Assembly: GCA_031213475.1 (NCBI GenBank)
Contig: JARUPZ010000020.1
Coordinates: forward strand, 806,001 to 870,000
DNA length: 64,000 nucleotides
Source: Nereocystis luetkeana
Lineage: Eukaryota > Sar > Phaeophyceae > Laminariales > Laminariaceae
Direction of reading: 5' to 3'
In this document: one piece after another, positions 7,517 to 56,439 of the stretch
Layout: every line of letters starts with the position of its first letter
How positions within the stretch are numbered: position 1 is the first letter of the stretch
The notes under the pieces: generated by a model
Seen by the model: only the letters and a program-made list of their open reading frames with translations
What the model was told of the DNA's origin: nothing
Databases searched by the model: none
Made by a program: the position numbers and the translations under genes

Positions 7517-10500
7517 TAGCACCACCAGTAGCACCACCAGTAGCCGTTTATAACAGTAGCAGTCAGAATATTGGTAGCAGCACCAGTATCATTTTATCAC
7601 AGGTGCAGCAGCACTACCCCCACCGGTACACTATAGTAGCAGTCTATAACTGTGTCATACTGGTACTATTAATAGTAGCAGCTTGTAGCAGCTTGTAGCA
7701 GCAGCAAAAACCCCACCAGTACGAATCAGCATATTGTCTTCATAGCAGCTGTAACGGTGGCTCAGGGTGTGTATGTTTTTGTTTTTGTTGTCGGCTGTGT
7801 TACCCTTACCCATGCCCTTTAGGGACGGAGGACGGGCCGAGGCGGACGGGGATGGCCTAGACGCGAAGGAACCGCCAGGAGGCTTGGCAAAGGTGATATC
7901 TGTCGACAAATCAGCTGTCATTGATGTTGACTTTCTGCTGCTGCTACTGCATCTCCTACTAGTAATAAGTCAACCACCGATGTTGGCTTTCTGCTGCTGC
8001 TGCTGCTGCTGCTGCCTGAGATAACCACCTGCTTCATTTCCGACTAAATTAAGCACCGATGTTGGATTTCTGCTGCTGCATCTCTGAGTAGGTCAACCCT
8101 TTAAAGCTACGAGTACGAGTACACCCATCTTCTTTTTTCGAACGAATGATTGGAATTGTGGTGGTATTATATCACTTTTGCAGTCACAAAGGGTGAATGA
8201 AATGTGTTGTACCTCGTATGGATAGATCATCTTGTTTGCGTGCTGGGTTGTACTTACATACCATGGTATGTACTTACGTATGTAGGTGACCAGAGAATGA
8301 ATGCCCACACCAGTATCTTTGAGGTGAGGAGTCAGTAAGGGCGCGGGGTGTGTGCTCGGTGTTGGTGGGTAGGAAAAACGGTTTCATGTGACAACAAGTA
8401 TGGTTTGAATGGCAGTAGGTGTGTTGTGTGACCTTCTGTGTACAGGTATAGCGGTTGCTGTTATTAATAGTAGATGAACCACATGTGTCGATATGTAATG
8501 TGTTTCAGAAGAGGTACGTAGTCGTGGTGAGCTTTCTGATTCATTTACCCGTCGTCTTTGGCCGATCGCCTATCACGGACTGGTTGCTACTGTTTTACCT
8601 CTACTGTCTGCTGGCGTGCCCCGTTGTTTTGGGTTGTGTTGCAGGATCTTTTCGGGCTGCCGTTTCTCGTTCGCTGCCCGCCTGAACGATCGACGAGGTA
8701 CCTCTGGCGGCTGGTGGTGCAGCAAGCCTCCAGATTTGTCGCGGGGTCTTCAGGGGGCAGGAGCTTGAGGACAGGGACTAAGGATAGGATGGCCAAAGCA
8801 GCCGCCGTCGCGAGGTGGGTGCTACGCTATGGGTTGTTTGTTGTACTGTTGTACTGTAGGTCATGTCGTGGCTGGTGTGGTAGTGTGGTATAGACCATGC
8901 CGTGGATGCTTATGATATGGCCATGCCGTGGGTAATATCGTACGGGTCATGCCATGAGTGCTACCAGGTATGATCTAATGATACGGAGCATACAGCGGGT
9001 GCTGTCAATCCAGCCAGCTGGCGATGACTGTATCTATTAATAATATGGATACTCCAAGTATTGTCTTGATCGTAAAGTGCCTTAATAGGATACCACATTG
9101 ATAGAACAGCTAGGAACACGTGGTACGGCCGCTATGACCTCGCCCTCATCGGCGACAGCGGCCTTGGCCAACGCCGTCCAAGGCTCCTCCTGGGGAGCGG
9201 GACAATCAAAATCAGGGGATGCCCGATGGCAACGGGTCGATTCCATTATCATTATACCCCGTGCGAGCACCGGACGAAGGAACAAGGCATGGTCCCGACA
9301 ACACACCTTGTACATGGTATATCATCCACATCAACATTCACAGCAATATTTCGAAGGTGGATGGAACAGAGCGGCTACAGATGTTGTGTGCCGCGCCATA
9401 TTGTAGTTAGAGTGTTCTTGCGTAGTCTTGCACGGTTGGGACCCCCAATAGCAGTAAGCCCTTGCCACACTCCTTGTAAACTCCCAATCGGTGCCAGCCA
9501 ATCGCAAAGAACACTCTAACTACAATATGGTGCGGCACACAACAGCTGTAGCCGCTCTGTTCCATCCACCTTCGAAATATTGCTGTGGATGTTGATGTGG
9601 ATGATATACCATGTACAAGGTATGTTGTCGGGACCATGCCTTGTTCTTTCGTCCGGTGCTCGCACGGGGTATAATGATAATGGAATCGACCCGTTGTCAT
9701 CGGGCATCCCCTGATTTTGATTATCCCGCTCCCCAGGAGGAGCCTTGGACGGCGTTGGCCAAGACCGCTGTCGCCGATGAGGGCGAAGTCATAGCGGCCG
9801 TACCACGTGTTCCTAGCTGTCCTATCAATGCGGCATCCTATTAAGGCACTTTGTGATCGAGACAATACTTGGAGTATCCATATTATTAATACCGGCAACT
9901 ATTAGTCCCATTAAGCACTCTACCCACCTTTTATGGGCCAAAGTACTCAGAGCTACAGTAGTGTGGGGTCATAGTTGCAGTAGCAAGCCCCACCGATGCT
10001 TTTTTTTTTTACATTTCTTTGGTCATCAGCTGTACTTTCCAGCTCATTTCGTCAGACATATTTGCCCTCGTCGGCCTGTTGCCTACCATCACTTGTGCTT
10101 CCGCTCTTTTCGTTCGGTGGTAACATTTTTTCTTGTCTTCGCTGTTTTCTGTGTGTGTTTTTAGCCGAAGCATCGTTTTACTGGTTTCACTGTTTTTTCG
10201 CTCCTTGGTCCGGTGTTGGTCTGGTGGTAACAGTGCTTTGCTGTCTTGGCTGTTATGTTTGTGGTTTGTGTCAACATTTGTTTGCTGTCCCTCCGCTGTT
10301 TTTTTATTTGTTTCGGTGGCAACGTTTGCTTGCTCTTATGCTGTTTTCGCTGTTTTTGTTCCAACGTTGTTTTGCTGATTTCGCGTCTCTGTTTCGCACC
10401 AACATGTTTCGTTGTTTTGGCTGTTTTCGCATTTTTTTTTACCAATTATTCCCGTTTTCGCCGTTTTCTCTGTTTTGTGGCAACAATCAGCAAGCGACCA

Positions 10501-20163: not shown

Positions 20164-23100
20164 GATGATGCCGACCGCGGATGGAAATCTTGCCGGCCAT
20201 AAACGTCTAAAGAGCGAATCAAACCCAGCTACAGTACGGCGGCAACAAAATAATACCGTTTTTTTATCAAGAGCATTGTGAGTGCGTCTTAGCAGTGCGA
20301 GTGCTAGTCGTATCATTCCGCGCAGGTGTCTTAAACGTTTTTGTTTCCTAGATACTACCAGTACATATATATATTATATATATATATATAATTATAGTAC
20401 GAAGTGACAGCACTGCTCTAATCTAACACTGCAAATAGTGTTCATACTTGACATCCTTATCTTACAGCCGAGGCTGCGTTCATGCTACTTTGCTTCGTTT
20501 GGGCGACTATGATGCCGTCCGATCGTCATACATTCCCATCGCCTTTGGCCCCTTAAGCCCCAGCCTGACTAACTTGAACCAAGTGATAGAAAATGCCAGG
20601 GTACTCGACCAGTTCAACTCTTCTTGCTGCGATAATGATTAATTTCCTTCAACGAACGAACCTGTATAAAGTCTAGGCGGGCGTTGACATCATGCTGCAT
20701 CACGAAGACGGCTAGGTGGCTGTGGGGCTCCTTGATGCAGTTGTTCAACATTCGAATGAGAACATTCGGGTAATCCTGGAACTCCACCATGAGCTTTTGG
20801 TCATCTTGCATAACCTTCAGTGGCCAGGAAGAGTGTAACAGAAGAGAGTAACACATGAAAATGAGGTTCAAGCGTAAGCAGCGGTTTGGTTTGGCAACTC
20901 CAGAGGAAAGGGAGGGACGTAGTCCTCGAGCATACGTGCGAGCGGTACGTACACGAGGATAATAGAGATGAATATCCCCAAATCCGGTGCTGAGGAACCT
21001 ATTGATACTACACTACCAGTACACATCAGGTACTCTGGTAGCAGTTTCTCGGACCTCGAAGCTTCAATTTCTAATATCCAAATTCATGTCTCGACTATAT
21101 CTAAAGTTGCCATGCACAAGGTACAAGGGGTGGGGTGTGTATTCATGTCATGCATGGCCGTCGTCATGGGGGGGGGGGGGGGGGGGCGTACTCATTTGTT
21201 GCTTGCCTTAGTCATTTGACCATTGACCACGCATCCCTTTCGAGACGGAGCACCGGTCCTACTCCTAATAGAGACACCTCCAACAATTGGGCGCTCATTA
21301 CGTTGTTTCCATATATTACATAGAAACTTTTGCTAATCTTATCCCCTTCCTGCTTGGCCGCCAGTGGCCCCCATCTATCTCCTAAGATAGCGATCGTTTT
21401 CTCGCTGCTATCTAGTGTGTCAAACTCCTCCATGTCACATTCGGCTATTTCCCTCATCTCCTCTTTTAACACATCCCGTTCCTCCTTATACATTTCACAT
21501 TCTCCTACTATGTGAGTTCTACTCTATTGCTTTGCCACACGGGCACATCTGAGCATATATTTCTTCCTCCTCCCGGCTACTGGTATACCTCTTTCTTCTT
21601 TCTGGCAGGTCCAGGTCACCTACACGAAAGCGCAGCTTCAGCGTTTTCGCGAAGTCCATTGGGCCGTGCAGATACGTTTTCATTCCTATTCCTTCCCTCA
21701 ATCCCCCGTATATCTCTAGGCGTTTTTCCGATTCCACCTTGTTTCGTAGCGCTAGCCTTTCCCTTCTTTCTATCCTTTCTTCTACTTCTGCCTTGTACTT
21801 CCCAAAGTTCCCGGCGGACATCACCTCTTCTTGGTTCCCCCCTATATCCTTCCATACTTTCTCAACTACGCTATCCCACCTTGTTCCAGCTCGCCCTTTT
21901 GTTACTTTCTCCCATACAGCTCTATCAACTACGGCCGGCAACCTTTTTTTGGCAGGTTCCTTACTTTATGTTGCCAATTCAACTTTCTCATATCCCTGTT
22001 TGTCTTGAGCGGGTGCATTCCCAGTTCTGCTCTTAATACTGTATTACTCGTCGTACTTGAGCATCCTACGGTAGGATTGTTTTAGCTGCTGTCCTCTGTA
22101 CTGTTCCAACTGTTTTACGTTTCGCATACCCTCCCCACACTTCTCCTGCATATTCTAGCTTTGGTGCTATCACATTCATGAGGATACATCTCTCAATCCT
22201 GGTGTCAAGGTGCTAGTCTGTTAGGATCGCATCCATCTTGCCTATGTGCGCTTTACCCTTTCCTATTACTTTTGCTATATGTGTATCCCAAGAGCAGTCT
22301 TTTGAGATTTCTACGCCAAGGTACGTATACTGGTCTACGATCGGCAATTCATCTTCTCCCCACTTCCAGCTGAAATTTATCGGGTTCACCTTATCTTCGT
22401 TACAAACAACTACTGCGCATTTCTTGACGTTCGCCGTCACCCTCCATTTCCTAGTGTATTCTAGCGCCTTCTCTATTTGTTTCTGCAATCCTTCGGGTGT
22501 TTCTGATATCCCCACGAAGTCGTCCGCAAACAAACATCAATCCCGACACCGTATCTTCCCCTACTGTGACTCCCTGCCTTGCTGCTTCGACTGTTACTAT
22601 CAGGTCGTCAATACAGATCTTGAATAGGTTGGGTGACAACGTACATCCCTGTGCAACTCCTTGTAAAATATAAACGTACTTCGATATTTCCTCGTCCAGC
22701 ATCACAGCACCTCTCGCACATTCCGTCATATTTTTAATCATTCTCCACACCTTTCCTCTGATTCCTATTAAATTTTCCCATAGTTTTTTCCACAATCCAT
22801 TTCTCCATACTAGCTGTGTCGTAGGCTTTCTGTGCATCTAGAAAGAAACAGTACGTTGTTAGTCCCGCGTCTTTCCTACCTTGGATTATCTTACCTAGAG
22901 TGTACACATGGTCTACGCAACTACGGTTAGGCCTAAACCCTGCTTGCCCTTCACTTATTTTGTCTTCCTTCTCCATCATCGTTCCCATTCTATCGTTCAG
23001 AATCTTACAAAATGTTTTGCCTACTGTGCCTAGCAGCGTTATCCCTCTACAGTTCCCCGGGTCAGCCTCATCTCCTTTCTTGAATAAGTTTACTGCTACT

Positions 23101-26100
23101 CCGTCATGCGGGGGGGGGGGGGTCAGATTAAATAGTAGTATATGTATGCTTTGCGGTGTATGGTACTTGCCTGCTACCTATACTACTGCAGTAATACTTG
23201 CGTTAAGGCTCAAAGCTTGTTATGACCAGGTATTTTCGCGGGTCACGGGGTGTTCAAAATGTCACGGGTCGGGTCGGGTCGGGTCGGATCAAGAGCTTTT
23301 CAAATCTCGTGGGTCGGGTCAGGTCGGGTCAAGAGTTTTTCAAATCTCGTGGGTCGCGTCAGGTCGGGTCAAGAAGTTCTCAAATCTCACGGGTCGGGTC
23401 AGGTCGGGTCAAGAGGTGTGATGAAAAGCAGACGGGTCGGGTCAGGTTATGACCCGTGAAAAACGGGTCACTCGCGGGTCGGGTTAGCATGACCCGCGAG
23501 TTGTGTTTTGCTGACCCACGGGTCGGACCCGCGCATCCGGGTCGCGGATCCGACCCTTGAAACTCCCCGCTGTCTTGCACAAAGGGTTCTCTCGTACCAA
23601 TGCTTGATAATACTCCTTTGGTATCATGTTCAAACATTCAAGCACAGCCAAATCCTTATACGCATGCCCGCATCCACCCATATCCTCTACTTCAACCAAG
23701 CCACACATCGCTGCGGGGCACAAAAATGACTGTTAACTTGTTTTTGACTTGTCCACCCACGGGCCAGATCCGCAGATCAAACCTGCGTCAAGATAAGCTG
23801 TCTCGCGGGTCAAGGTGACACGACCCGCATATTTCCCGTAGCTCACGGGTCAATCGGAAGATAGTGGGTCGGGTCGGGTCGGGTCAGGAGGTTTTGAAAT
23901 CTCGCGGGTCGGGTCGCGTCGGGTCGAGTCAGGAGATTTTCAAATCTCACGGGTCGGGTCGGATCGGGTCAACAGTTTTTTAAATCTCGCGGGTCGGGTC
24001 GGGTCGGGTCGGGTCAAGAGACTTTCAAAAACCCGCGGGTCGGGTCAGGTCAAGTCAACATAACCATTTTATTTTTTTTCGCGGGGTCGGGTCGTGTCAG
24101 CTTACCCGACCCGACCCGACCCGACCCGACCCGACCCGACCCGACCCGACCCGACCCGACCAGGCCCGTAAGGTTTGACCTGACCCGCGAAAAGCGCTGA
24201 TTACAACCGACCTCCCCTATCATCACGGGACGAGTATTTTATTCTTCAAATCCGAGATTCAAGTTTTGAGAACGACTACAGTATACACGCCGAACAGGCC
24301 TCCAGCTCATGATTATTACTGACTACGAATCAGGTTCGTAAGTAATACCAGATTGCTGTACTCGTAGTAGCAACTTGACGTGCCAGGATCTGAAGCGAAA
24401 CTCCAACAATGAACTTTATCCATTGCCAATCACGCACAGAGAAGCACTACAGCTAACAGCGCTTATCGACTTCCATACCGCGCTTTGCGCAAGTTGTTCA
24501 CTATCTATCTACCGTGCCACCCTGTCTCGTACGAACGTACCAGTACCGCCAGTACCTACGTACGTACTAGTGGTGGACAGTTTAATCTGCGGTATGCATT
24601 TCCGGCGTGTAAGGCAGCAGTGACATTTTTTTTTTCCCCGATTATCCTAAAGATGGGCACAATGAATGGGTGTATCGCTCGGCAAGGGTCCACACTCGCC
24701 TGTGCTTCTCGTTAGTAACCCTAGGTATGGTTGCTGTCATGCCTGACCTGGAAGGAAGGTTGGTCTGTGAGGTGTGTGTAGTGGTAAAACAGATCCGCCT
24801 CGCTAGAGAGCTCCACTCTCACAGATTGAGGTGCCGTGTCGTCCCCCTGTCAAGTAGCAGATGCAAGCGCGTGCCGACAGCGGTGAGCGTCACAGGGAGA
24901 TTACGAGCACACTTCGTACTACGAGTACATTACACAGGAATGTAAAATAGATTGCGCATGAGTATCGTAGTGTATGCGTTCGGATCTTGTACGGCGCTTT
25001 GGTCTTGTGCCCAATTGAATATTGCTGAGCATGATTCGGTGTGCATAAACTAAAGACGGGATCGGGATAGGCGAGATTGTATTTCTTTGACGACCACTCT
25101 ATATGGGCGACTTCCACACACAGCAGCAGCACTACTGTAGCTTACCCGATGGTACTCCTACTACAGCACCAGGTATTATTGAAGGTACTTTTTGCGTTAG
25201 CTTCAAGCTCTACTATTGATAGTAAGAACTGCAGTGATATTGCTCTACGCAGCTCTACAAAAAGGGCTACACCGAGTACCTGGTATATTTTTATACAGTA
25301 GAAAAGCTGCTCCAACTGAAGGGCCATTCTTATCGGAGAACTTTTTTTTTCCGTATTTTCCATGTTTTTTTCGCGCAATGTTTTCATCTTCCAGGTTTTC
25401 CCGTTTTATTTTCCAAATATGTTATAAAAACCTGATTTTTTTGTTTCTGGATAATTTTCACGAATGAATAGTGACAGAACGTCTGCGTATGAAAGATGTA
25501 CTCATGACATCACTATCCTTGTGACAGCAGTATTAATAGTAGTTCTTCGGAGATTTGGTACGGAGATTTGGATCTGGTACGGAGATCTGGCGTGACATTG
25601 CGGGAATATTGGGAGATACGTGAGGGAACATGGCTTTGAGTTCTGGTTTCACTTGACCAAGGTGGTTCACTTTTAAAATTTCGCGTTGGTATGGGCTCGC
25701 GCCGAGCCCCCTTCCACTTCCCCAACTACTTCGAGAACTACTTCTTCTTATCCTCAACGTGCACGATAATACACATTAACTAACAGGCCGGTCTAGGCCG
25801 CCTGCCTTCATTCTGAGAGCCCCGTCAACTGGGCCGACAGCACCATTCATGATTTATTTACCTATTATTAGCGTATATTGATACCAGGTACATACCGGTA
25901 TCTTGTACGTAGGAGAGGCGCTTCTACTGTATAATAAGTACGTTAGTACAAGTACTACTGTTGTAGTTCCGGCTGGTCAAGTATTCTGTTATTGCTCATG
26001 TAAAGCGATGTCGAAATTATTTCGCCCGATAGGCTGGCGTCCCCGGTGGCTTGGTAGGTGGTCCGCGTGCCTATCAATATCAATTTCGTGGGTTCAAGTC

Positions 26101-28151
26101 TCACCGAGTGCATGTGCTCGTAGGGACTTTTTCTTGCACAAAAAATTGATCATCAGCGGAAAGCGCGAGAGCGTGAGTTAGCTACATTCGGTGAAATCGA
26201 CGAGCAGTGGGAATGCTGAACCAACCCTATGCGCGACAAAAATAAAGGCACGTGCCGGGGGGGAGAAGGGACGATACCTGTGACCACGGCTTGTCCAGAA
26301 GATCGCTGAGGGTAAAACCTCCGACGAGTTAGGCTGGAAAGTAAAAGTGATGATTGAAAAAAAAAAAAAATGCGATACGTAGCCGAGCCTTCGAGCCAAA
26401 AGCAAACATGCCAACTACCCGAAGCCACATGTATGCTGTCCTGCGTCCTGCTCCTCACCAGCAGAAGTACCTTGACCTTAATCGCCTCGAGAGTGCCGAC
26501 CTGCTGCGGGCCATCAGCTGACTCCTGCACCCTCAGCTCAAAGGGGACTTCACGGTCATAGATGACGCGAAATCCGTCCGCTGGTAACATGCATGATACA
26601 GGTATTCACGTATAAATAATGAGAACCAAACCGGAGAGGGGAACAGGGATACCGCCCACATGAATAACTTGCATACAGTACGAGTACACGGTTAGTTTTT
26701 TTCAAGTTGTTAGCAAAGGCCTATCCGTAGTGTGAGCTACAGCTGTAGTGCAAACACTGCGACGACACAAACAAGAGGAGCGCAAGCTTGCTTGTGGTAT
26801 ATAATGGGATTCCCCCTCACGTACGTGTCTGCGCATCGAGTGAGTGGGAATCACGATCTATTGACGAAAAATCACGAGCTGGCGAAAATTTAATGACGAA
26901 ATGGCATTATTAGTCAACGAAAGTGCAGCAGCAGTCGAGGAGGCGTACAGGTAGTCAAGTACTACAGGTATACCAGGTATACCCGATTGATGTCAGGGAC
27001 AGACTTCTGCTATTATACATCTCTCTTCGAGAAGTGAACTATTAGTGTACTCGAAGTTGTTTGGTGCACCACATGTCAAACGGCATTCGCATAAATACAC
27101 AATGTGGCCCAATATGAAACGGCGTCCCCGGTGGGTATATAGTAGATGGTCCGCGAGCCTACTAAATTTTGTGAATTTTGTGGGTCTCACCGAGTGCATA
27201 CATACATACTCGTACGGACTTTTTCTTGCATAAACAAAAAATGATTAGCGGAAAGCGCGAAAGCGTGAGTTTAGCTACATTCAATGAAAAACATCGACGA
27301 GCAGTGGGAATGCTGAACCCTATGCGCGAAAAAAAATGAAGGCACGTACCGGGGGGGAAAAGGGACGACAGCTACCTACGTGTGACCACACGGGCTGTCA
27401 AGAAGAAGACCGCTGAGGGTAAAACCTACTACGAAAGTGGAAGTAAAAGTGATGATTAAAAAAGCTAAAACAAAAGACAACCTCCACGTGTGTGATGGGT
27501 GGACATCTTGGTTGGAGTGTACGACCTCAAGCGCACAGGCATAATATCGTATACGACACGTATACCAGATATAAGGTGCCAGGCATACAGCAGTGTCGGG
27601 TACCGGTACACACCTGGTACGCACATGATTTATTTGTTTGTTGTATCTGCTACTGCTGTACTGTACGGTACAACTGTAGTAGTACCTCGATGGCATGGAC
27701 GTTGTATTCTTGCGACACGGGTGTCATTGTCGCTCGAAAGGAGGGACTATAGAAGGCAGGGCGAGCCATCCTCGTTGCGAATGCAACGCTACTGCTGTTG
27801 TAGTACTTGGAGCTTCGAAAACGTTGCTTTCCGCGATATGGACATAGCAACCTGTCTGTCCGTTTCATACAGGAGTCAGTGCACTACGAGTACATACTGC
27901 TGCACCCTGCCCGGCATGTATTATATGAACACAGTGTCCTGTTCCAGAAGAAGAGTCGGGCGGCTACCCCTCCATTGCTGAATGAATCGAGTGACTAGAA
28001 CACCTACGAAGTAAGCAGCTCACCGACTGATGGATCCATCTCCTCAATGGACCCGAAGTCGAAGGTTTGGACCATGTCGCCACCCTCGGATCCCATCCTA
28101 CGACGACGATACTGTACTACGTCCGCCTTGGCTTCCGGTGGTATTTGGCAA
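18303..28151 (-). CDS. SAS-6-like (SAS6L-type) protein
   Basis: SAS-6 proteins build the ninefold cartwheel of centrioles. SAS6L proteins share the SAS-6 N-terminal fold but lack the long coiled coil, and are known from basal bodies or the apical/flagellar apparatus of protists. Exons, 5' to 3': 28151-28024, 26580-26459, 24846-24748, 20814-20662, 19767-19666, 18398-18303 (TGA). All joints agree in phase. Landmarks: FDFGSIEEMDPSV; GFRVIYDREVPFEL; VRVELSSEADLFYHYTH; DDQKLMVEFQDYPNVLIRML; ARLDFIQ joined to NMEYKFVELMSLEY; ITYRYNAMK; then a helical tail SRLALMQARLQEVNNLV ending KNPSLLLQLQ. The pattern VEF..YP...IRMLNNC plus N.EYKFVELMSL mirrors the SAS-6 head. The first coding exon upstream of 28151 was not found. 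The assignment is from motif memory, not a search. The 20815-24747 intron holds a LINE and a hAT-like element; 24847-26458 holds a SINE. Confidence 0.8.
18525..18572 (+). repeat. (GGGA)n purine tract
   Basis: Roughly 48 bases of GGGAGGGAGGG repeat in the last SAS6L intron; the minus-strand transcript carries a pyrimidine (CCCT)n tract about 130 bases before the final acceptor. Confidence 0.85.
18757..19085 (+). mobile_element. tRNA-derived SINE in partial tandem (family 3)
   Basis: The unit starts AAGGATTACCCTGGGCTGGG, then has an A-box-like TAGCTCAGTAGGTAACACC and a B-box GGGTTCGAATC at 18845-18855. A second head copy begins 260 bases later, at about 19017, and stops soon after its A box. 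Between them lies a short tail ending gagggggggagagcgttct. It has tRNA promoter boxes but no credible cloverleaf, so I call it a SINE rather than a tRNA gene. Confidence 0.7.
20116..20161 (+). repeat. (CTA)n microsatellite
   Basis: About 15 perfect CTA/ACT units inside the SAS6L intron between exons 20814-20662 and 19767-19666. Confidence 0.95.
21190..23105 (-). mobile_element. Non-LTR retrotransposon (LINE A), 5'-truncated, frame-broken
   Basis: The minus strand carries reverse transcriptase pieces in changing frames: KKGDEAD and GQAGFRPNRSCVDHVYTLG (23100-22870), FFLDAQKAYDTA (about 22850), GVAQGCTLSPNLF (about 22650), FADDFVGISETPEG with the catalytic FADD (22533-22480), then YTYLGVEISKDCSWDTHI and a C-terminal Cys-containing end MCPCGK near 21530. 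At least three frame shifts make it inactive. Its 5' end stops mid-RT at a G tract (23109) and its 3' end lies near another G tract (21170). Both junctions show a CATGAC-like word, which may be a target duplication. It lies in the SAS6L intron. Confidence 0.85.
23227..24199. mobile_element. Non-autonomous hAT-like element with GGGTC arrays, older copy
   Basis: The ends are CAGGTATTTTCGCGGGTCA and, reverse-complemented, CAGCGCTTTTCGCGGGTCA. The flanking octamers GTTATGAC and ATTACAAC match at 5 of 8 bases. Inside are arrays of GGGTC broken by units such as aagagttttcaaatctc, around a unique core at 23560-23750. It is in inverted orientation to the better preserved copy at 34658-35573. It encodes only repeat peptides (VGSGRVGSG type) and no transposase. 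Confidence 0.8.
26036..26369 (+). mobile_element. tRNA-derived SINE family 1, complete with poly(A)
   Basis: The head is GGCGTCCCCGGTGGCTTGG with a B-box GGGTTCAAGTCTCACC, followed by a body (gcggaaagcgcgagagcgtg; gcagtgggaatgctgaac; aaggcacgtgccggggggg) and a run of 13 A at 26357-26369. Copies: 27121-27466 (+), 40012-40354 (-), and a broken copy at 42430-45326 (-). Confidence 0.85.
27121..27466 (+). mobile_element. tRNA-derived SINE family 1, second copy
   Basis: Same head and body as the copy at 26036, with small indels (an extra tatatagta in the A-box region, and the B box damaged to TGGGTCTCACC). The A tail is short. It lies about 0.5 kb upstream of the SAS6L exon 26580-26459, inside the intron that precedes it. 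Confidence 0.85.
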
Positions 28152-30925: not shown

Positions 30926-30944
30926 GCACACCTCGGACAGATCA

Positions 30945-31425
30945 GCTCACCGTAGCTCGAGCTAGCTCTTTTCGGGGGTAGCTCACCAGTGAGCTATATG
31001 AGCTACATGAGCTAGCTCGTCCGCCCCCGGCTTGAGCTATAGGCGGTAGCTCATCTGCGCATGTTTTCAAAGCTTGAGCTCTAGAGGACAGCTCATCTGC
31101 ACATAAATGCCCAGTGTGAGCTATAGGAGCTACATGAGCTAGCTCGTCTGCCCCCGAGATGAGCTATAGGCGGTAGCTCATCTGCACATGTTTCGAAGGC
31201 TTGAGCTATAGGCGGTAGCTCATCTGCACATGTTTTCAAAGCTTGAGCTATAGGCGGTAGCTCATCTGCCCATGTTTTCAAAGCTTGAGCTATAGGCGAT
31301 AGCTTATCTGGACATGTTTTCAAAGCTTGAGCTATAGGCGGTAGCTCATCTGCACCTGTTTTCAAAGCATGAGCTATAGGCAATAGCTCATCTGCACACA
31401 TTTTCAAGGTTTGAGCTCCTCTGCT
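30945..31425 (+). repeat. 42-base minisatellite (GAGCTATAGGCGGTAGCTCA)
   Basis: Around eight units of roughly 42 bases, each with GAGCTATAGGCGGTAGCTCA then TCTGCACATGTTTTCAAAGC. Each unit contains a short inverted repeat (TGAGCTA/TAGCTCA). The minus strand is open through it as a 14-residue repeat, which is a consequence of unit length rather than evidence of a gene. Confidence 0.9.
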
Positions 31426-31650
31426 TGTATTTTTTGGCGATGTAGATGGTTTTCTGTTTCTGCCTCTCTCTGTCTCTTCTTCCTTGCACCGTATGGTAGG
31501 CTGTAGCCACGAAAGCCATGTTTAAGGAACGGTGTGTACGGATTGAGATGATGCTGATATTCAATATAGCCTTATTAACGGGCGGTGGGCGGGTTGGACG
31601 GGTTGACTTTTCGCTGGCGTTGCAGCGTACCACTAGTAGTAGCCTTGTTA

Positions 31651-31848
31651 TTACGGGGTACCATAGTTAACAGGACCTATGGTATACATAAAAACCTATT
31701 ATGTGTTTAACCATTTTTGCTAACAATATTTGGTCATTACGGGGGGCCATAGTTAACAGGACCAAATATTGTTGGCAAAAATGGTTAAACATATACCAGG
31801 TAGGTTTTTAAGTGTACCATAGGTCCTGTTAACTATGGTCCCCCGTAA
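31651..31848. mobile_element. Hairpin MITE flanked by TA (Tc1/mariner-like)
   Basis: The 198-base element begins TTACGGGGTACCATAGTTAA and ends with its near complement, flanked on each side by TA (31649-31650 and 31849-31850). The two halves pair over most of their length. A third copy of the terminal word sits near the centre (attacggggggccatag, about 31736). A TA target duplication is the Tc1/mariner signature. Non-coding. Confidence 0.8.
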
Positions 31849-32124
31849 TAGTCATATATTGTATTTTTAGAAGTCAAGTATGAGTATGCGAATAAATGCT
31901 AATAATAACATTAATAAAGATTATTTTTTAATACTGATAGCCTCTAAACTTAAACTTACCTTTAACCTCGGACAGATCATGAGCTAGCTCATCTGCATGG
32001 TAAGCTCTCCAACCGATTTGTAGATAATGTTAATGCTATTCCTATACATACACATACTCGTATACAATCGCACTTGCCCCCAAGGGCGGGCTTTGTCGGC
32101 TACTCAACTTATATGCATACGTTG

Positions 32125-34080: not shown

Positions 34081-34657
34081 CTTTCCCGGCATAAAAACTA
34101 TATTCCTTACCATTCAGAGATCCATACCCAGTGATAAACGATACATATCCTATATATCATGTACCTGGTACCACTTACCCAGGAAGAACGATATAACTAC
34201 CATATAATTTGGTACTCCCTTACACGTCCCCAACAGTAGTATGTATGATATACGACTTTCTTTACCCGGAACGAATAAAAAAAATCCAGTCGAACATGAA
34301 CATATCTCCATTTGTACGATTAATAACGTATTTCGACCGACAGGTGCATCCAATTGCAAGAAGAGAAAACTAATCCTCCTACAAATACCTTCCACAAACA
34401 CTCCACATAACCTCCCGCCCGCCAAGTAGCCGCCTCACTAAAAAGCTCCATCGGACGAGATACCTGTCTGTCAACTTCACGACATTCTCGCAACATAAAT
34501 ACACCCTAGACCCCGACTCCCTCCAAACCGTTGAAATAAGCGGTATTCATATACTCGTATATATATGGTATTTGTCCAGTTGCTCTTCTGGGCATGCCTA
34601 CATCGAACACGGAGCGCAACGAAGCGTAGTGGGTGTCGTATTCGGCGGTAATATTTC

Positions 34658-35573
34658 CAGGGCTTTTCGCGGGTCAGGTCAAACCTCTCGGGTCGGGTCG
34701 GGTCGGGTCGGGTCAGCTGACCCGACCCGACCCGCGAAATTTTTGAGGCATGTTGACTTGACCCGACCCGACCCGCGAGATTTTGAAAGCCTCTTGACCC
34801 GACCCGACCCGACCCGTGAGTTTTGAAAATCTCCTGACCCGGCCCGACCCGACCCGTGAGATTTCAAAACTTCCTGACCCGACCCGACCCGACCCGCCAC
34901 CTTCCGATTGACCCGTGAGACACGGGTTTCATGCGGGTCGGGTCACCTTGACCCGCGAGACCATTTATCTTGACCCGCAGGTTCGACCCGCGGATGTGGC
35001 CCATGGGTCGGGACTTCAAAAACCATTTAGTGTTCATTTTAGTGCCTCGCAGCGATATATAACCTGGCTGTAGTGGGTATAGATGGATGCGGGCATGCGT
35101 ATACGAATTTGACGGTGTTTTAATGTTTTAATGTGATACCAAAGGAGTATTATAGAGTATTGGTACGAGAGAAGCCGTTGGGTAAGAGAGCGGGAAATGA
35201 TTCAAGTGTCGGATCCGCGAGCCGAATGCGCGGGTCCGACTCGCGGGTCAGTAGAAAACAACTCGCGGCTCATGCTGGCCCGACACGCGAGAGACCCGCT
35301 TCTCGCGGGTCGTGACCTGACCCGACACGTGAGATTTTCATCACCTCTTGACCCGACCCGACCCGACCCGACCCGACCCGACCCGACCCGTGAGATTTGA
35401 AAAACTCTTGACCCGACCTGACCCGACCCACGAGATTTGAAAACCTCTTGACCCGACCCGACCCGACCCGTGAGATTTTGAACACTTGCTGACCCGACCC
35501 GACCCGACCCGTGACATTTTGAAGACCACGTGACCCGACCCGCGGGTCGGGTCATGACCCGCGAAAAGCCCTG
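34658..35573. mobile_element. Non-autonomous hAT-like element with GGGTC arrays
   Basis: The terminal inverted repeats CAGGGCTTTTCGCGGGTCA are perfect at both ends, flanked by an exact 8-base duplication AATATTTC (34650-34657 and 35574-35581). Eight-base duplications and CAGGG ends are the mark of hAT transposons. About three quarters of the 916 bases are GACCC arrays broken by short spacers around a unique core of about 200 bases (35000-35210) shared with the copy at 23227-24199. No transposase is encoded. Confidence 0.88.
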
Positions 35574-35952
35574 AATATTTCTAACCAAAACACAAAAATA
35601 CGACTTTCAACTATTAAAAATACCAGGTGGGGGGCGGGGGGGTGGTATTCACATATATCATCCAGAAAAAACAAAACAATACCTGGTACCAGGTACTCGC
35701 GTACTCGTACGTATCGTCCAGTATGAACCTCACTACCGCATATTTCGCGCGTACTCGTACGTACCTGTAATATGAACCAATTCACGAATTTCTACCCTCG
35801 TCGTGGAAAGAAACAAGCTTCACATTGTAAATAATAGTGGATCGAACACCTACCATCACGAGTGCAAATGCTATCTCCTCGCCCCGCGTGTTGCCGGACC
35901 CAAAAAGGGGTCCAGCGGACGATCCAACCACGCCTGCCCCATCCACGACCTC

Positions 35953-44933: not shown

Positions 44934-45254
44934 GAGTAGGTTTAGCAGTCTGGGAGAAGGGATCTTTAGGGTTTTTTTTACTTGAAAAATGTGTAGCGTG
45001 GTCTGCACTTCGGAATCGTCGTCCGCATCTGAGGAAGTTCCTGGTTCGATGCAAACTCGGCGTAGCCTCGTTTATGGCGAGTTTTGGCCCGTTTCGGCTG
45101 CGGTTTGGGGTCAGGGTTAGGGTTAGGGTTAGGGTTAGGGTTAGAGTCAGGGGTTGGGTTGGGTCTTCGCCCGTGCCTTGATCCCAACAGGAACCAAAAC
45201 ATCCGAACAGCCAACCAACCTAAAGATCCCTTCTCCCAGATTGTTAAAGGTCTT
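44934..45254. mobile_element. 321-base MITE with 9-base duplication (Mutator-like)
   Basis: The 25-base inverted repeats CAGTCTGGGAGAAGGGATCT...AGG and its complement have one mismatch, with weaker pairing outside them. CACTCGGTG is present at 44925-44933 and 45255-45263, a 9-base duplication as left by Mutator-like elements. The middle holds a TTAGGG array at 45111-45146. Confidence 0.7.
45111..45146 (+). repeat. Internal telomere-like (TTAGGG)n
   Basis: Five tandem GGGTTA units followed by degenerate ones, inside the 321-base MITE rather than at a chromosome end. Confidence 0.9.
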
Positions 45255-47935: not shown

Positions 47936-48113
47936 ACAGGGGAATCGATCATGAACGGGTGAATCATGTCGCAACACAAAAAACAACAAATGGCAATTAC
48001 AATGGATCATCTGATCATGAACAACTTGCAACGCGAGCCGCCTGATGTAAACCTATCTATCGCCGTGGAGGGGCCCGAAATATCTCCAACAAATATATGC
48101 TACTGGTACATAC

Positions 48114-49245
48114 CAGAAGGTGCGAATGCTGAGAGCCGAGGTGATCGAAACGTTGCTCTACGGTTGCGTTACTTGGAGCCCGAGCAAGACTGATTACGGT
48201 AGGCTACGGGAGGTCCACCACAAGATGCTCCTCCGATGCATCGGCTGGCGGAAACGAAAGCGCGAAGACCACATTCTATCCTATGCTAGCGCGCTTCTCA
48301 GGACAAAATCTGAAAGCGTTGAGACGACGGTACGCAGACGTAGGCTCTTGTTTGCGGGCTTTGTGACACGCATGGGAGAGGAGCGTCTGCCGAAGAGGGT
48401 GATGTTTGGGGAGATGGTTGGGGGTAAGGGTTACTCCGGAGGACAGGAGTGGGACTGGATGAGGTACCTTGAGGAGGACCTCAAGGAGTTGGGCATCAAG
48501 CTCGAAGGGTGGCGCGAGGCAGCACAGAAAGCAGACAGATGGTTCCGACGGGTCGAGGAAGGGGCGGAGGCCTTCATACGGAAATGGCATACAGATGAGA
48601 AGGAGGCATCGGCAGAACGGCATAGAATAGCTGCAACCACGACCACAGCCGTTGACGCCAACGCGAGTGCGCAGAATGGCAGGGAAGAGGGGGGGGGCGA
48701 AAGGGGGACGAGGGGGAATGGGGGGGGGAGGGGGGTGGGGCGGTCTGCCCAACAGACTGAAGCCTGATTATGGCCATCATCGTCATGATGCACTCCCTTC
48801 TTTGGGACCCAAGTAACTAGCATGGTGCCACCTGGGCAACTTTGCGTGTCTGTATGCTCCAGTGCCTGCCTTTCGTATTTTCTTTCCCCCCCGCCCGTGA
48901 TTATCGCTTTTTTGTCCCTTCTTTTTTTCATTTTCCTTTCATTCCCGTTTGTACCTCTTTGTGTCTTTGTTAGTATTGTCCGTTTTGCTATCTGCTTCTG
49001 TTTTTGTTTTGTTTTGTTTTTTTTGCTTCGCTTCATCTTCTTTTTCAGGTTTTTGTCTGCTATTAGTAGTCTCCTTTTTGCTTCCCTGGTGTCCGCCATG
49101 GTGGAGTGCGTATGCTTGTTTTTTGTTTTTCGCCTCTGTTTTACTTGAGGTATTTCTTCCACTCCAGAGTTATTGGAGCCTGTCCTGCGACCACGGACTG
49201 CATTGTATTGTGAGTTAATGTGAGAACAACAACAACAACAAACAG
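48114..49245 (+). mobile_element. LINE B, 5'-truncated copy with (AAC)n tail
   Basis: The plus strand is open for about 215 codons (48120-48767): LRAEVIETLLYGCVTWSPSK, HKMLLRCIGWRKRKREDHIL, RRRLLFAGFVTRMGEERLPK, QEWDWMRYLEEDLKELGIK, ending at TGA after a Gly/Arg tail. The roughly 0.45-kb 3'UTR ends in aacaacaacaacaac (49226-49240). It lacks all reverse transcriptase motifs. This uninterrupted copy defines the insertion sites in LINE B at 29672-34080. Confidence 0.88.
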
Positions 49246-55045: not shown

Positions 55046-55048
55046 TAA

Positions 55049-55552
55049 GGCCACTTCTTATGCAGTCGGATTTGCAGTCAGTTGGATATGGTGCTATCGA
55101 CACGTTCGCACGATATTTTGCCCCAAAAATGTGCGAAACTGCTGTTTCTTGCCTCAGAATGACTTGGACTTTTCTCCAAGACCTATCTAGAGCTGTTTCC
55201 CGCTTCTCCAGGTGGCCAGTTGCAGGAAATCACCTCCGGTACTTTTCCGATCCAACTGGGTCAAATACGACTACAATCCCCGATTGGATCGGAAAAAACG
55301 TTTTTTCCGATCCGATCCCTGATCGTAATCGTATTTGACCCAGTTGAATCGGAAAAGTACCGAAGGTGATTTCCTGCAACTGGGCGCGCATGGAGAAGCG
55401 GGAAACAGTTCTAGATAGGTCTTGGAGAAAAGTCCAAGTCATTCTGAGGCGAGAAACAGCAGTTTCGCACATTTTCGGGGCAAAAGCTCTTGCGAACGTG
55501 CTGATTACGCCATTTCCAACTGACTGCAAATCCGACTGCATAAGGAGTGGCC
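55049..55552. mobile_element. PIF/Harbinger-like foldback MITE 2 (TAA-flanked)
   Basis: Almost the whole 504 bases fold back: GGCCACTTCTTATGCAGTCG at the left pairs with its complement at the right, and the arms meet at about 55300. TAA stands at 55046-55048 and 55553-55555, so it shares its left TAA with the adjoining element at 54251-55045. The small central palindrome reads tcggaaaaaacgttttttcc. Confidence 0.85.
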
Positions 55553-56439
55553 TAAAGTGTTATTATTGACTGAATCGCTTTTATCGTTTTTTTCAAATTA
55601 TTCTGCCAAACATTGTACTGATATCGTACTTGTCAGTATGTTGATATATGTCTTTGGTGTGGCACTCACGGCGCAAAAGGCCTCTCCCGCATAGCACAAA
55701 ACCGAGGACTTCCGACGAAAAAAAAAACACTCCGCGCGTGACACACGGCACACACCGCACACACACGCGACCCACGGAACACAGAGGTACAGTAGTGGGA
55801 TAATATTAACAGAAACCGCAACAGAATAGAAAGGGATGCACCGAAGAAGGGGCTGGAACTTTCGACCACAATCGGTTACCCACGAAAATCACACAGCAGC
55901 AGCAGCAGCAGTGCTGTTGTTGTACCTGTGGCAGCATGCATGTCAATATCACAAAACAACAGCAGCAGAGACCACCTGTTGTTCAGATCGCTGGTCCGAT
56001 AAAAAAGCAACCACGAGTATTACCAGGAAGCCACAGCAATACAACGTGGAGAAACTACCGCACACGCGTGATGTTGCTTCCTGCTCTGCTGGCGGGCGGC
56101 AGGCGTGTATAGCGCTGTAGCCAGCTGGTTGTAGAACGCACCCTGCTCTGCTCAGTAGTGCTGCTTGTTGTCTGTGTAGTGTCTGAAATACGTTCTGTAC
56201 ATAATAATACAAACAAAATAGTTGAAAACAAGAGGAGAAAAAAAACACATTGTCTCTGCATTGTCTCGAGAATCGAGTTCCCGCCAAAATCGAGCATGGT
56301 GACCATTTGATCATGTTACCAAAGATCCGTATTATTATTTTCGCGGCGCACGCGAAACTCCCTACACACCGCACGCACATGCGCAGCAGCAGCAGCACAG
56401 CAGCACAGTAGCAGCACAGCAGAAGAGAGAGAGACGTGG

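Follow-up and report, generated by a model that had tools for sequence, protein, structure and literature searches.

An array-rich element bounded by perfect inverted repeats

We analyzed a 64,000-nucleotide stretch of the Nereocystis luetkeana genome (the window) and identified a 916-bp non-autonomous hAT-like element, copy A, on its forward strand at 34658..35573, recognized by its ends, an end-to-end alignment with a second copy, further copies in the genome and empty sites. The element is delimited by 19-bp terminal inverted repeats (34658..34676 on the forward strand and 35555..35573 on the reverse strand), which consist of CAGGGCTTTTCGCGGGTCA and its reverse complement and match at 19 of 19 positions. 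By chance, an exact inverted 19-bp pair less than 2 kb apart would be expected ~0.0005 times per random 64-kb window. The 8-bp sequence AATATTTC directly flanked copy A on both sides (34650..34657 and 35574..35581), the match being exact over 8 bases and failing at the ninth. The perfect ends and exact 8-base duplication described in a first-pass annotation of this DNA were thus borne out.

Inside the left end, a subterminal array (34690..34895) begins with (GGGTC)5 and continues with runs of GACCC in units of ~40 bp, while a right subterminal array of ~40-bp units occupies 35314..35553 and a motif-free centre lies at 35010..35231. The motif also forms two perfect palindromes, one of 36 bp inside the left end (34699..34734, with CAGCTG at its centre) and one of 24 bp adjoining the right end (35531..35554). 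Tandem GGGTCGGGTC did not occur in the window outside copy A and the second copy, copy B. The earlier description of the element as built mostly of (GGGTC)n was an overstatement, since exact GGGTC/GACCC letters made up 32% of copy A (29% of copy B) and arrays detected by TRF summed to ~47% of copy A.

Copy B is 973 bp long and lies at 23227..24199 on the reverse strand, inverted relative to copy A. It was recognized by its ends, which differed from the end of copy A by 1 and 2 mismatches, and by alignment to copy A over the full length, end to end. The 8-mers flanking it (23219..23226 and 24200..24207) were identical at 5 of 8 positions, as in a decayed duplication (chance of at least five, 0.027). 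On one side of copy B, SAS-6_N was matched at 20614-21012 (reverse strand, E 2.3e-17); on the other, the beginning of this domain was matched weakly at 26153-26605 (reverse strand, E 0.014, under the Pfam cut-off). Since these matches lie on both sides of copy B, its placement in an intron is supported, in agreement with the earlier proposal of an older, oppositely oriented copy in the SAS6L intron. We found no recognisable transposase fragment in copy A or copy B, and an 82-aa frame that is open in the centre of copy B had no relative in Pfam, PDB or viral contigs. The SAS-6 intron also contains fragments of a LINE reverse transcriptase that adjoin copy B (window 22213-23177, reverse strand), and one long copy of the family described below (L028) was inserted in a relative of window 21711-21806.

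The window contained several other repeats. An insertion of ~1.2 kb at 30926-32124, with ACCCTT at both edges, interrupts a LINE copy that has an uninterrupted relative at 48113-49144. Inside this insertion, a 42-bp-period array of paired GAGCTA/TAGCTC motifs was detected at 31030-31417; the AGCTC array was considered as hAT-like and rejected because its host insertion has a 6-bp edge repeat and no matching ends. A near-palindromic repeated element with many copies (TTACGGGGGRCCATAG...) lies at 31649-31850; its relatives were seen at L042, L057, L076, L084, L121 and L134, and two members of the copy A family, L016 and L019, were inserted in it. Large inverted repeats were located at 9035-9891 (385-bp arms, 96% complementary) and at 55048-55553 (163-bp arms, 92% complementary, and a second pair of arms inside them). 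An interstitial GGGTTA array at 45108-45165 is one that we take to be like the telomere repeat.

Copies, target-site duplications and empty sites in the genome

The first-pass annotation had suggested searching the genome for the 19-base end. This search, which covered 465 Mb in 1,987 contigs, returned 798 exact copies (392 + 406) and none of the reversed pattern used as a control. With up to 3 mismatches allowed, the numbers were 3,650 (1,837 + 1,813) for the end and 52 (28 + 24) for the control. From 100 listed exact ends on contigs C1-C4, we paired those that faced each other less than 1.5 kb apart and obtained 19 copies of 789-1462 bp, 12 of them short (789-916 bp) and 7 long (1258-1462 bp). 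The long copies had the ends and arrays common to the short copies and a different centre. The sole exact 19-mer match in viral contigs (L001) and two bacterial genome contigs matching the pattern of end plus array (L002 and L003) had their hits in apparent ordinary coding sequence and were taken as chance. At three places on one contig, 13-15 kb apart (G000:C3 15736949, 15749990 and 15764575), two exact family ends stand back to back, perhaps within a duplicated stretch.

The 8-mers flanking the 19 paired copies were identical at 8 of 8 positions in 12 copies, at 7 in four, at 6 in two and at 1 in one. When flanks from different elements were combined as a control, full identity was seen in 1 of 342 combinations and 7/8 agreement in 11, the latter because the insertion sites are AT-rich. 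We then tabulated the base composition of 19 duplications, namely those of copy A and of 18 paired copies, leaving out the copy with 1/8 agreement. The inner positions (2-7) held A or T in 89-100% of cases, compared with 47% at the two outer positions (1 and 8), which indicates a target preference. One member of the family (L020) had inserted into the middle of another family member.

The site into which copy A inserted is itself a repeat. When joined, the flanks of copy A gave 38 junction-spanning matches of 80-86% identity in addition to its own two flanks (the best 40 of 85 candidates). Empty sites were a check named in the first-pass annotation; six were cut out, and in each the 8 bp occurred once, unchanged or in variant form, with a letter-perfect version in L138. 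Among 17 other elements (one row, L014, was left out as the same locus), 8 had a junction-spanning relative among the sequences in hand, some with small gaps nearby, such as one of 16 bp for L018. The empty relative of L027, found in L052, showed no difference for ~20 bases across the junction. Because of the shared ends, the 8-bp duplications and the empty sites, we consider these copies a non-autonomous hAT-like family.

Anatomy of the subterminal arrays

The array unit is mostly 40-41 bp long and usually consists of four GACCC pentamers (20 bp) and a 20-21-bp spacer near GTGAGATTTTGAAAACCTCTT. Across 21 copies (A, B and the 19 others), 118 of 232 pentamer runs contained four pentamers, 149 of 190 spacers were 20-21 bp long and 103 of 190 periods measured 40-41 bp. 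Counted per tenth of length, the motif occurred 9, 8, 7, 6, 0, 0, 3, 10, 7 and 9 times in copy A and 11, 7, 8, 7, 0, 0, 4, 7, 6 and 7 times in copy B, a distribution that corresponds to the layout of subterminal repeats. The central gap between motifs, from start to start, was 227 bp in copy A and 255 bp in copy B, and in the 19 other copies the motif was much rarer in the centre than in the outer parts. Most array units open with TGACCC. This hexamer and its complement reached 22.9 per kb in copy A and 18.5 in copy B as against 0.47 outside, while AAACCC was not enriched (0+1 in copy A and 0+1 in copy B).

Individual spacers can be told apart by marks of their own, and their order was compared between copies A and B. 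For 6 of the 9 spacers of copy A, the positional partner was among the best matches, and a summed distance as small was seen in 1 of 20,000 permutations. Copy B has one unit more than copy A, and several runs differ by whole pentamers. The arrays of both copies lie between transposon ends; satellite DNA would be a long head-to-tail array without such bounds, and ~1,135 long pure tracts are present elsewhere in the genome (see below). The earlier view that a satellite-like array moves as a DNA transposon therefore held as regards the transposon, with its shared ends, duplications and empty sites, but the unit order common to the two copies argues against a satellite that happens to move.

hAT genes in the genome

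The genome contained at least 105 matches to the hAT dimerisation domain (best 150 of 169 candidates). We examined the flanks of 98 of these, 20 with 1.5 kb on each side and 78 with 2 kb downstream, and left out 7 whose scores duplicate those of others. The autonomous hAT with the same ends that the first-pass annotation had proposed to look for was not found beside these 98, and none of them belonged to a hAT element with GGGTC arrays. None of the 23 listed hAT matches on C1-C4 was within 95 kb of an exact end (100 ends listed), and facing exact-end pairs that span 9.8 kb on C3 (7496248-7506079) and 30 kb on C4 had no hAT match inside among the matches listed. A short family copy neighbours a hAT match at L036/L052 and at L088. 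Several loci were considered as autonomous elements and rejected: L052 is a short copy ~1 kb from an unrelated hAT gene, L088 is a short copy beside a hAT match, L031 has 9.4 kb between its ends with flanking 8-mers that agree at 4 of 8 positions and motifs concentrated at one end, and L132 and L135 carry no array.

Since none of the 98 examined matches (of 105 listed) provided a transposase that shares these ends, the assignment to class rests on the ends, the length of the duplication and the likeness to a hAT family. The P and Merlin superfamilies also duplicate 8 bp, and a DNA transposon of such a superfamily could leave the same footprint. We regard this as very improbable, given the CAGGG end, the dense subterminal repeats that accompany the 8-bp duplication, and the related end of a hAT gene family of this genome.

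This gene family has an array of CCGTCC close downstream of its hAT matches at three loci (L117, L119 and L124; period 31), and its open frame contains a hAT domain over the cut-off. A transposase gene of this family lies at C8:1429710-1431023, with further exons upstream. The family end reads ...AGTACCGTGATAAGCCTTG, and the three copies diverge beyond it. Read inward, the end was identical to that of copy A at 13 of 19 positions, a level reached by 44 of 100,000 shuffles in what was a post hoc comparison. Like the GGGTC family, the CCGTCC family (with its relative L134) has a pentamer array, of CCCGT there and CCCGA here, as well as AT-rich spacers and a related end; it differs in having hAT genes, in an end that agrees at 13 of 19 positions, and in a unit of ~31 bp (41-42 bp, weakly, in L134). 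Its transposase is only a candidate for the mover of the GGGTC family. The relative L134, 70% identical to the CCGTCC family, had the same motif, a weak 41-42 period and an end that matched that of copy A at 10 of 19 positions, and L133, 42% identical, had an ACCGCC-rich stretch and an end with 11 of 19. The flanks of two further relatives, L132 and L135, had no array.

Arrays of other motifs were detected downstream of further hAT matches. A CAACTA array of period 42 occurred at eight loci (L053, L055, L061, L065, L066, L067, L093 and L100), and close downstream of single hAT matches we found a CAAATA array (L054, period 42) and a CGGTAC array (L084, period 41). The CAACTA and CAAATA units agreed at 28 of 42 positions, which none of 5,000 shuffles reached, indicating one frame with two motifs. 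Dense CAGATC (L102) and CGAGCA (L034) motifs near hAT matches had no such period, and most of the 98 hAT loci lacked a dense-motif array of this kind. TRF arrays with a period of 24-50 and at least 3 copies were present at 17 of the 98 loci and twice in the ~62 kb of the window outside copies A and B. These 17 loci comprised 13 motif arrays of four families, 1 neighbouring GGGTC-family copy and 3 unrelated arrays. The excess is modest in number, and the argument depends on where the arrays lie and on their repeated occurrence.

The arrays might act through DNA structure, such as a G-quadruplex or a hairpin, and not as protein sites. GGGTC repeats fit a G3N2 quadruplex pattern, with 7 matches in copy A and 4 in copy B on both strands against 12 in the ~62 kb outside, and copy A has its palindromes of 36 and 24 bp. 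However, copy B contained no perfect palindrome as long as 18 bp, and CAACTA, CAAATA and CGGTAC beside other hAT genes have no G-runs and yet similar unit lengths. We would therefore give hardly any credence to structure as the way in which the arrays work. The first-pass annotation had named both unusual structures and protein binding; unusual DNA structure of the arrays is possible, judging by the motif, and protein binding, as predicted from the motifs, is likely.

From arrays to long (GGGTC)n tracts

Pure (GGGTC)8 occurred 22,865 times in the genome, counted in 5-bp steps (control 52), and pure (GGGTC)9 occurred 21,730 times (control 44). The difference corresponds to ~1,135 tracts of at least 8 pentamers, with a mean of 27 and ~154 kb altogether. 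The longest pure run in the 21 copies had 10 pentamers. We also searched for the left leader with eight pentamers behind it, tolerating at most 3 mismatches over the whole pattern, and identified 98 places (control 0), among them copy A, at a spacer of the right array, and copy B. Because the mismatches may fall in the pentamers, 98 is not to be read as a fraction of the ~1,135 tracts. At C2:18307185, a tract begins directly behind an exact family end. Some tracts, then, grew inside elements, and the suggestion that the arrays could seed satellites was sustained to that extent; the link covers some of the ~1,135 tracts. Two pure tracts, one of 53 and one of 51 GGGTC pentamers (G000:C1:5093520-5093784 and 15380649-15380903) had no exact family end within 38 kb (100 ends listed).

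Conservation of pentamers and spacers

Between copies A and B, pentamers differed at 5.5%, spacers at 19% and the core at 18%. A strict test on matched positions, with only runs and spacers of equal length, gave 4 of 90 for pentamers and 12 of 122 for spacers, which was not significant (p 0.19). Among 14 short copies, compared over gap-free columns, pentamers had a mean pairwise difference of 2.8%, spacers one of 11.3% and the centre one of 8.9%, so that pentamers were 3-4 times less variable than spacers. The ends of these copies differed by 1.4%, a low value that is uninformative because 12 of the 14 were selected by exact ends. Constraint on a source element would explain the low variation of the pentamers, but slippage that rewrites them could do so too.

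If slippage were the whole cause, the pentamer tracts would be hitchhiking micro- or minisatellites, uniform for that reason and without a role in transposition. Run lengths that differ by whole pentamers and the presence of long (GGGTC)n tracts are consistent with such passive cargo, and a review of MITEs (PMC9659126) describes, in the part that concerns us, tandem repeats within MITEs that become satellites. Against it, the array is present on both sides and is missing from the centre of copies A and B and much rarer there in the 19 others, the spacers hold 20-21 bp in 149 of 190 cases, and further hAT genes of this genome carry, at the corresponding position, arrays of different motifs. We consider passive cargo unlikely. 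The best reading of the arrays is as amplified subterminal sites predicted to bind a transposase.

Discussion

The family described here has several features of a hAT transposon, namely an 8-bp target-site duplication (8/8 in 12 of 19 copies, 1 of 342 in mixed pairs), short inverted ends that begin C/TAGGG, as does CAGGGCTTTTCGCGGGTCA (19/19 in copy A), and subterminal repeats near both ends. As in a MITE, the copies are short and numerous, have shared ends and contain no transposase gene, the 82-aa frame being without a Pfam match. The ends may resemble those of Tag1. Placement in the Tag1 group would call for both motifs of that group, of which TGACCC was enriched and AAACCC was not, and we do not assign the family to it.

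Subterminal repeats are given as a defining hAT feature in the cited text on Tgf2, whose zinc finger is required for binding to the ends (PMC4890040). The transposase of Ac recognizes AAACGG repeats that lie no more than 200 bp from the ends, three copies being needed, and Ac/Ds ends start with C/TAGGG (PMC3260210). The transposase motif of Arabidopsis Tag1 is TGACCC at the right end and AAACCC at the left (cited in PMC3143072), the Herves transposase binds CGATTCAT repeats (PMC3143072) and the Kat1 element has repeated TGAATT (PMC4763223). Given such published motifs and the enrichment of TGACCC here, we interpret the arrays as transposase sites that have multiplied.

Compared with these systems as their cited passages describe them, the GGGTC family shares with maize Ac/Ds the non-autonomous copies, short C/TAGGG inverted ends, 8-bp duplications and repeats near the ends (PMC3260210), but has GGGTC/TGACCC in regular tandem units instead of AAACGG and no autonomous partner among the hAT matches examined. 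Tag1 is alike in that its TGACCC opens most units here and unlike in its left motif AAACCC, which is not enriched; this comparison is one of motifs, not of transposases. The BED domains of Hermes bind the first two left-end sites cooperatively owing to their palindromic arrangement, and several subterminal sites are read by the BED domains of the multimer (PMC10368747). The likeness lies in several subterminal sites, the first of them in palindromic arrangement, for which binding by a transposase is predicted in the GGGTC family; the Hermes sites are short and scattered, whereas those of the GGGTC family are tandem and evenly spaced. MITEs with internal tandem repeats, as treated in the relevant part of a review (PMC9659126), are likewise small transposons whose tandem repeats can expand, but the repeat of the GGGTC family occupies both subterminal regions, is conserved and resembles transposase sites. 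A search by title of the open-licence literature returned no description of a hAT element with such an array layout.

Taken together, the family is probably a high-copy, non-autonomous (MITE-like) hAT transposon that is served in trans by a hAT transposase and whose GGGTC/GACCC arrays are amplified, putative transposase-binding subterminal repeats. A hAT transposase would cut at the CAGGG...CCCTG ends, and insertion would create the 8-bp duplication. The arrays may dock several DNA-binding domains of the transposase per end and so help to assemble the transposition complex, which would be the benefit of repetition. Runs of pentamers would lengthen and shorten, and some would grow into long (GGGTC)n tracts, a step in part observed here. 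Against this reading count the lack of a transposase with these ends beside the 98 hAT matches examined and of a transposase remnant in copies A and B, the non-significant strict test between the two copies, slippage as another possible cause of uniform pentamers, and the missing arrays at L132, L135 and most of the 98 hAT loci.

A broader proposal is more tentative, and we hold it to be possible though somewhat doubtful. Several hAT families of this genome may each have amplified their own motif in ~31- or 40-42-bp units just inside the ends, with a change of motif across the whole array when families diverge. CAACTA and CAAATA in one frame, and CCCGT and CCCGA with related ends, are as expected under co-evolution of transposase and array. 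These unit lengths are near 3 or 4 helical turns, although helical spacing of the units is only an idea. On this proposal, leakage of arrays into (GGGTC)n tracts would tie the origin of microsatellites to the multiplication of transposase sites.

The way in which hAT transposases recognize their many subterminal sites is still an open question of mechanism. Tandem, regularly spaced sites that differ in sequence within one genome would allow spacing and sequence to be tested separately. The finding also carries a warning for annotation. The pipeline applied to Ectocarpus (PMC12477816) moves a family to the tandem repeats once TRF arrays cover over 60% of its length, and such a rule could hide array-rich transposons, although copy A at ~47% would escape it. 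Finally, the family offers a concrete route by which transposase sites may give rise to microsatellites.
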